From Gammaproteobacteria bacterium (GTDB lineage: Bacteria; Pseudomonadota; Gammaproteobacteria; GCA-002705445; GCA-002716945), in contig JAURQW010000013.1 of NCBI GenBank assembly GCA_030835925.1, forward strand, positions 1 through 48,703: a stretch of 48,703 nucleotides of DNA, in the 5' to 3' direction. Position 1 is the stretch's first letter, and each line of letters starts with the position of its first letter. The position numbers and the translations under genes were made by a program. This document shows, in pieces, positions 46,987-48,703 of the stretch. Below the pieces are notes generated by a model. It saw nothing but the letters and a program-made list of their open reading frames with translations. It searched no databases and was not told where the DNA came from.

Positions 46987-47481
46987 ATGGAACATAAAGT
47001 ATCAGACGCTGAATTTTATAAGATCTTTTCAATCTTGTCAGTCATTATAATAGTTTTGGCTATATTTATAGCGATTTTGTCAAATGTATTTGCAGGTTAT
47101 TCATCTAGTGGAGAAGATAATTATAAATCAGAGCTCCAAAGCTTAACAGATCAAAGAACCCAACCATCTGGAAGAACTAATCTAGCAAGTAACCCTTCAG
47201 TAAAACAAGCTCAAAAACCAGTGGTGGTTGCGTCTAAGAAATTATCTGGTCAAGAGGTATATAATGCAGCATGCATGTCATGTCATGCAAGCGGAGCTGC
47301 TGGAGCACCTATGACCGGTAACAAAGACCAGTGGTCAGAAAGAGTATCTAAAGGTAAAGATACTTTATATGCTAGCGCAATAAATGGGATTGGTGTGATG
47401 CCAGCAAAAGGTGGTATATCAACCTTGTCAGATGATGAAGTTAAGTCAGCTGTAGATTATTTAATATCAGAAATTAATTAG
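46987..47481 (+). CDS. Membrane-anchored cytochrome c5
   Basis: A 164-residue monohaem cytochrome c. One N-terminal anchor helix (13-35, IFSILSVIIIVLAIFIAIL), a low-complexity linker, then a c5-type haem domain: Cys96-Met-Ser-Cys99-His100 and distal Met138 in INGIGVMPAKGG. Periplasmic side of the inner membrane; likely electron donor to an oxidase. A TATAAT at 46946-46951 may be its -10. Convergent with ubiK, four-base overlap. Confidence 0.93.
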   Translation: MEHKVSDAEFYKIFSILSVIIIVLAIFIAILSNVFAGYSSSGEDNYKSELQSLTDQRTQPSGRTNLASNPSVKQAQKPVVVASKKLSGQEVYNAACMSCHASGAAGAPMTGNKDQWSERVSKGKDTLYASAINGIGVMPAKGGISTLSDDEVKSAVDYLISEIN

Positions 47482-47702
47482 TCATCTAATTTTTTTTCTA
47501 ATTCTTCTATCTTTAATCTAGTTTTTAAAAGCACTTTCTTTTGAATATCAAATTCTTCGCGTGTTACTAAATTCATCGAATGTAAGTAATCTTCTATAAG
47601 TGTTTTTAAACCATTTTTTAATTCTTTTCGAGAATCAGAATCATTCGAAGGTATTAGTTTTTCGATTTTACCGACTAGATCTAAAATTTTCTTTGAATCC
47701 AT
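47478..47702 (-). CDS. ubiK: Ubiquinone biosynthesis accessory factor UbiK
   Basis: A 74-residue protein of the YqiC/BMFP family. N-terminal amphipathic helix (ILDLVGKIEKLI) and C-terminal trimeric coiled coil (LVTREEFDIQKKVLLKTRLKIEELEKKL), the family layout. With UbiJ it supports ubiquinone synthesis. Its position, divergent from the glnK locus, is as in Pseudomonas. Its ribosome site (AGGTG) overlaps the NtrC-like site upstream. Confidence 0.92.
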   Translation of the reverse strand: MDSKKILDLVGKIEKLIPSNDSDSRKELKNGLKTLIEDYLHSMNLVTREEFDIQKKVLLKTRLKIEELEKKLDD

Positions 47703-47704
47703 TA

Positions 47705-47721
47705 TGCACCTGTTTTGTGCA
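47705..47721. promoter_or_regulatory. NtrC-like binding site
   Basis: TGCACCTGTTTTGTGCA is a 17-bp site with perfect TGCAC/GTGCA arms, matching the NtrC consensus TGCAC-N7-GTGCA. A further TGCAC half-site starts at 47727. The centre is about 143 bases before the expected start of the sigma-54 promoter, a normal enhancer distance. Confidence 0.75.
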
Positions 47722-47829
47722 GTTAATGCACTTAATTAAACATATTACTTTATTATGTAATAATTATATCATAGCGATTAATTATTACATACATCCCTCA
47801 AAACATAGCATTCATAGGTTTTTAGCTGT

Positions 47830-47846
47830 TGGCATAGTTTATGCAT
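47830..47846 (+). promoter_or_regulatory. Sigma-54 (RpoN) promoter
   Basis: TGGCATAGTTTATGCAT fits the -24/-12 consensus TGGCAC-N5-TTGCW with the exact ten-base gap between GG (47831-47832) and GC (47843-47844); mismatches are C to T at one position and T to A at another. Transcription would begin near 47856, some 75 bases before the porin ATG. With the NtrC-like site upstream it forms a complete nitrogen-control element. Confidence 0.75.
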
Positions 47847-47929
47847 TAGGTAGTGTGAAGCTTGACTTTTTTCGTTGATAAATGTCGAACTTATAACTTG
47901 AAAATAAATAAATATAAAAGGAGAAAAAT

Positions 47930-48610
47930 ATGAAAACACTAATGAGAAAATTCTTACCAGTCTTTATGGCTGTCAGTTTTTTTGTTCCTTTAGCTGTAGC
48001 ATCTGAATCAGCTGTAGCTGATGATGAAGCTTCATCTATAAGTTACAACGTTGGGTATATGTCAGATTACTGGTATAGAGGTGTTCACCAGTCAGATTCT
48101 GCTGTTAGTTTTGGCGCAGATTATGAGTCTGGAGGGTTTTACCTTGGTACTTGGTGGGCTGATGTAGATACTGGTCTTGAACATGATTATTATGGCGGCT
48201 ATGCATTTAGTGCAATGGGCATAGATATGTATGTTGGCGCTTCAGGATATTATTATACTGATAATTTTGATTCAGATTATGAAGAATTAAATTTTGGTAT
48301 TGCTATGGGTCCTGTTTCAATTGACTATGCAGATGGTAAATATAAGACTGCAACTGATGATGCATATGATTATACATCTGTTGCGCTTGACCTAGCTGTT
48401 GTTGGTTTACCAATGACATTCACAGCTGGTTTCTGGGGTGGTGACACTTTAAAAGGTAATGTTTACACTCTTGATTATGCTACAACAGTTGCAGGAGTCG
48501 ATGTTGGCCTTCAAGTAGGAAGAAATGATGATGACATCACGCAAGGTTCACGAGGAGCTAGCTCTGTAGATACAACATTTGGAGTCTTTACGTTAGGCTA
48601 TAGTTTCTAA
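47930..48610 (+). CDS. TorF-type outer-membrane protein (TIGR02001 family)
   Basis: A 226-residue secreted beta-barrel-like protein. Signal peptide ends near residue 26 (PLAVASESA). The mature part has alternating aromatic strands: ISYNVGYMSDYWYRGVHQS is the family hallmark, repeated GGFYLGTWWADVD, EELNFGIAMGPVSIDYADG, and a C-terminal Phe (FGVFTLGYSF) typical of outer-membrane proteins. Members are annotated as putative porins and often precede glnK. Ribosome site AAGGAG at 47918-47923. Nitrogen control is inferred from the promoter. Confidence 0.88.
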   Translation: MKTLMRKFLPVFMAVSFFVPLAVASESAVADDEASSISYNVGYMSDYWYRGVHQSDSAVSFGADYESGGFYLGTWWADVDTGLEHDYYGGYAFSAMGIDMYVGASGYYYTDNFDSDYEELNFGIAMGPVSIDYADGKYKTATDDAYDYTSVALDLAVVGLPMTFTAGFWGGDTLKGNVYTLDYATTVAGVDVGLQVGRNDDDITQGSRGASSVDTTFGVFTLGYSF

Positions 48611-48654
48611 CAAATTTTTAAGTTACAATTAAGTTTTAAAGGAGATATTTATCA

Positions 48655-48703
48655 ATGAAATTAGTTATAGCAGTAATCAAGCCTTTTAAGCTCGATGAAG
48701 TAA
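48655..48703 (+). CDS. glnK: PII nitrogen regulatory protein, 5' part
   Basis: Cut by the window end after 16 codons: MKLVIAVIKPFKLDEV is the invariant PII start. A strong ribosome site (AAAGGAGAT, 48638-48646) precedes it. No promoter or terminator was seen in the 44 bases after the porin gene, so it is probably read from the sigma-54 promoter. glnK rather than glnB is preferred because of the porin and ubiK neighbours; amtB would be expected next. Confidence 0.85.
   Translation, partial: MKLVIAVIKPFKLDEV

Follow-up and report, generated by a model that had tools for sequence, protein, structure and literature searches.

How is transcription controlled at the extreme end of the DNA analysed here, where a gene for an outer-membrane protein is followed by the beginning of a PII gene? 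The window (the whole stretch examined, 48,703 nucleotides from a gammaproteobacterium of the GCA-002716945 family) carries at this end what the original prediction described as a complete nitrogen-starvation switch, consisting of a 17-bp NtrC site and a sigma-54 promoter. The site, a predicted NtrC-binding palindrome TGCAC-N7-GTGCA (TGCACCTGTTTTGTGCA; 47705-47721, no strand), is present as described and is conserved at the orthologous place in relatives. It is followed on the plus strand by the sigma-54 -24/-12 promoter element TGGCATAGTTTATGC (47830-47844), whose spacing is indeed correct, with GG and GC at the fixed distance, and for which a start site is predicted near 47855. The figure of about 143 bases given for the distance between site and promoter corresponds to the distance to this predicted start (the palindrome centre lies at about -142); the two elements themselves are 125 bp apart from start to start, with 108 bp between them. 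Downstream, as predicted, are torF (47930-48610, plus strand), encoding a TorF/Gcw_chp outer-membrane beta-barrel protein of 226 aa (Pfam PF09694, E 1.5e-9), and the PII gene glnK, with a ribosome-binding site AAGGAGAT immediately 5' of it. Only the first 16 codons of glnK (48655-48703, plus strand) precede the contig end, and the full gene is found at the equivalent place in relatives. The divergent neighbour on the minus strand is ubiK (47478-47702; PF04380, E 3.3e-18).

The 44-bp gap between torF and glnK was searched for terminator and promoter matches and contains none, which agrees with the claim that the PII gene has no visible promoter of its own. In most relatives the genes follow the order torF, glnK, amtB. 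This order is broken in the source genome by the contig break, and amtB is found cut at the edge of contig C21, as would fit a break after glnK. Since the genes downstream of this truncated amtB are the same two as in the relatives, C21 very probably continues the torF-glnK contig. The element described as complete is thus complete as regards its two sites, both of which are intact, but the operon is cut by the contig end, with amtB on the edge of another contig. A distant gammaproteobacterial locus (L145), with a TorF protein 38% identical, shows this gene order too, together with a match to sigma-54 (TGGCATAGCTGATGC) and NtrC-like sites that have two mismatches, and the torF-glnK-amtB arrangement is therefore probably older than the GCA-002716945 family.

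The TorF protein scored 45.2 bits against TIGR02001, below the cut-off of 47.15, and 38.6 against the Pfam Gcw_chp profile (PF09694), above its threshold of 24. Its predicted structure is a beta barrel (pLDDT 77), for which the best PDB matches were porins such as VhGalP and KdgM, the nearest being KdgM-type oligosaccharide porins. On the basis of this model, TorF is likely to be an outer-membrane channel.

A match to the sigma-54 consensus is, taken alone, no better than chance in the source genome: the window contains 30 loose matches (23 expected), and of the eight strict matches genome-wide, six fall within open reading frames. The weight of the match before torF derives instead from its position and conservation. 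The promoter is present at all 21 orthologous loci, where about 0.0005 matches are expected per 300 bp per strand; the motif tTGGCA...tttaTGCAt has been retained while the flanking DNA has diverged, and the information content (20 of the 21 loci) is 1.68 bits per column in the promoter versus 0.39 upstream. Sigma-70-like matches before torF were at chance level. The strict sigma-54 patterns proved unsuited to a census of the regulon, as they return mainly coding-region background and missed a GTGC variant before the second amt gene. Sigma-54-like matches in or near unrelated genes of relatives (L108, L110, L111 and L112), with no ammonium gene downstream, were dismissed as chance occurrences.

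The presence of rpoN and ntrBC, which the original prediction had named as a check, was confirmed: rpoN is on contig C22 of the source genome and a glnA-ntrB-ntrC operon on C24. No true enhancer-binding protein other than NtrC (TIGR01818, 616 bits) was detected in this genome, and most of the 25 family genomes likewise contain one; weak sigma-54-activator matches, many of about 800-880 aa, were taken to be other AAA+ ATPases. A sigma-54 element lies 51-80 bp upstream of glnA in 20 of 20 genomes, and 54 bp upstream of the source glnA-ntrB-ntrC operon (L106 4101-4155, G000:C24), near which the NtrC-like sites are weak (two-mismatch matches only). The second amt gene (G000:C4, L169 about 2822-2836) has a sigma-54-like element of its own, TGGCACACTTTGTGC, which also occurs in relatives, and where amtB has become separated from glnK in relatives it too is preceded by a sigma-54 element. 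Because glnA, the second amt gene and the relocated amtB all carry such elements, the set of sigma-54 targets is likely to be small and concerned entirely with ammonium.

A single exact copy of the palindrome is present in the 918,761 bases of the source genome (0.29 expected under a first-order model). The 25 family genomes contain 22 exact palindromes, versus four for a reversed-pattern control; 14 of them precede torF and three precede glnA, and the remaining five are close to the background level of the control. The additional copies in G015, G018, G020 and G011 (C3) were consequently set aside, their number being about that expected from the control. The copy in G011:C3 (L116 1386-1402) is situated 113 bp before a porin-like gene and may be either an extra target or a chance match. 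Before torF the NtrC site is exact in 13 of 20 loci and has one mismatch in five more, so that a best site with at most one mismatch is found in 18 of 20, where about 0.5% would be expected. Both elements thus stood the comparison with relatives that had been proposed as a check, and their conservation and position span six genera. The view that the two matches arose by chance and have no function, which might appeal to the commonness of the sigma-54 consensus in this genome, is refuted by this as far as comparison can refute it, and its probability is negligible. Judged by the comparative evidence, the nitrogen-starvation switch is real and conserved, and its type is a known one; rpoN, ntrB, ntrC and the conserved sites all support the predicted control by nitrogen.

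Where the palindrome is kept, its distance from the promoter ranges from 89 to 173 bp, a variability which fits that expected of an enhancer working by looping. In most loci of genus g2 a second site, 13 bp further upstream, overlaps the first, and several loci of the same genus as the source genome have an extra TGCAC half-site downstream. In the window this half-site (47727-47731, plus strand) lies 22 bp beyond the first half-site of the palindrome, on its downstream side; with similar repeats in L005, L008 and L010, it is possibly a weak second NtrC site. Such half-sites lend some credit to a reading in which the sigma-54 promoter is genuine, but NtrC acts mainly through scattered half-sites, or from solution as the sole activator, and can do without the single palindrome. 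No enhancer-binding protein besides NtrC was found in the genome, and in L005 and L008 (same genus) the palindrome has degraded to TGCAC half-sites while the promoter is intact. We nevertheless regard this reading as unlikely, given that 18 of 20 loci have kept the palindrome intact or almost intact, many more than chance would give. Only 2 bp separate the NtrC site from the start codon of ubiK, and the site covers a Shine-Dalgarno-like AGG of this gene (47700-47721), and this closeness is kept in many relatives; ubiK might be affected by NtrC. A further proposition is that the palindrome chiefly serves ubiK, with NtrC acting as a roadblock on the ubiK leader and torF using another promoter. 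The conserved sigma-54 promoter faces torF in all loci, and the sigma-70-like matches offer no better candidate than chance, which makes this proposition very improbable. We are therefore confident, from the conservation of both elements, that 47705-47844 represents an NtrC-activated sigma-54 promoter of a torF-glnK-amtB operon; this confidence covers promoter and operon, and the manner in which PII is modified is rated separately below.

Wherever a PII gene was found in the family (PF00543), there was one per genome, always behind torF; the family genomes without a match are incomplete drafts, and the source glnK falls in the contig gap. In G017 (G017:C4:751802-753409; L011/L026) two torF genes in tandem precede glnK, which stands behind the second, and amtB is relocated. 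In G002 (G002:C1:114018-115076; L024) torF and glnK are broken by stops and frame changes, the PII gene being split into two pieces, owing to either sequencing error or decay. The same profile detected no second, constitutive PII (GlnB) in any family genome with PII. The uridylyltransferase GlnD, which usually modifies PII, gave no match in 24 of the 25 family genomes, including ones 97-100% complete, in a single profile search (TIGR01693) of draft genomes, 11 of which are at least 90% complete. This search did pick up E. coli and Caulobacter, as well as a fragment of 212 residues in G008. The fragment was rejected: it lies in an open reading frame at the end of G008:C17 that begins as an ATP-grasp-like gene, which is also present in the source genome, and becomes GlnD-like in its last few hundred bases (L200 about 1360-1971). 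It looks like an assembly chimera at a contig end.

The E. coli-type glutamine synthetase has a tyrosine at the position where E. coli glutamine synthetase is adenylylated. At the aligned position 19 of 20 genomes, including the source genome, have phenylalanine, and tyrosine was found only in G016. A loss of the covalent arm of the cascade would agree both with the missing GlnD match and with this phenylalanine. In the one relative checked, PII has kept its T-loop and Tyr51, which counts against a GlnD-less reading, because such retention would be expected if some modifying enzyme remained.

We infer transcription from the promoter, binding of NtrC, the response to nitrogen and the sensing of 2-oxoglutarate, and these would combine as follows. 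When nitrogen is short, NtrB would phosphorylate NtrC, and NtrC-P would bind the palindrome, some 142 bp ahead of the start site, from where looping of the DNA would let it open the sigma-54 holoenzyme poised at 47830-47844. Expression of the operon would then yield the putative TorF outer-membrane channel, GlnK (PII) and the AmtB ammonium channel. With glnK as the sole PII gene detected in this family and no match to GlnD, PII signalling is probably direct: PII would bind 2-oxoglutarate and ATP/ADP and report them to NtrB without being uridylylated. More GlnK would in turn provide feedback, restraining NtrB and closing AmtB when ammonium returns, and PII would thus be both sensor and product of the switch. 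Such a stripped-down Ntr circuit likely has sigma-54 promoters at glnA-ntrBC, torF-glnK-amtB and the second amt gene. Comparison supports the NtrC/sigma-54 switch well, while GlnD-less sensing is what we infer. We lean, with moderate confidence, towards a minimal Ntr system in which sigma-54 serves NtrC alone and a few ammonium operons, the sole PII is made by the switch itself, uridylylation and adenylylation have been lost, and nitrogen status is sensed purely through the metabolites that PII binds.

The switch appears to turn on the sole PII gene and the ammonium-uptake genes in marine bacteria with tiny genomes. This setting could open to comparison a long-standing question, namely how much of the Ntr cascade a working nitrogen switch needs. 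If the reading is true, streamlined marine bacteria with NtrBC, sigma-54, one PII and no GlnD would offer naturally occurring cases in which PII signals through metabolite binding and nothing else. A search of the open-access literature found no report of NtrBC/sigma-54 with PII but without GlnD.

The Ntr system of E. coli comprises NtrB/NtrC, sigma-54, a glnA-ntrBC operon and an NtrC-controlled glnK-amtB, together with GlnB, GlnD and an adenylylated tyrosine in glutamine synthetase. The bacteria described here share NtrB/NtrC, sigma-54, the glnA-ntrBC operon and a glnK-amtB of the NtrC/sigma-54 type, but have one PII, no GlnD match and phenylalanine at the adenylylation site of the synthetase. 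GlnD is also present in Pseudomonas. The promoter itself is textbook and the operon type is already known: in Herbaspirillum seropedicae, nlmA-glnK-amtB is NtrC-dependent, its expression rising about 21-fold when nitrogen is limiting (PMC3023670), and the word "striking" in the original prediction was in this respect an overstatement. The two operons are alike in that a gene for a membrane or periplasmic protein comes first, followed by glnK and amtB; unlike Herbaspirillum, where GlnD and a further PII protein, the constitutive GlnB, are present (PMC3023670), the family described here has glnK as the sole PII gene found, and the search for GlnD gave no credible match. A single NtrC-controlled PII gene associated with amt is shared with Pseudomonas stutzeri A1501, which has just one PII gene; there an NtrC site precedes glnK, amt genes are co-transcribed with it, and torF, which leads the operon here, goes unmentioned in the available part of the account (PMC8443478). 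The closest parallel for PII without glnD is provided by other streamlined aquatic bacteria, SAR11 IIIa/LD12, which have glnB without glnD (PMC10030771). The available part of that account mentions no NtrC/sigma-54 system, whereas the bacteria described here have kept the NtrC/sigma-54 promoter, ntrBC and rpoN.
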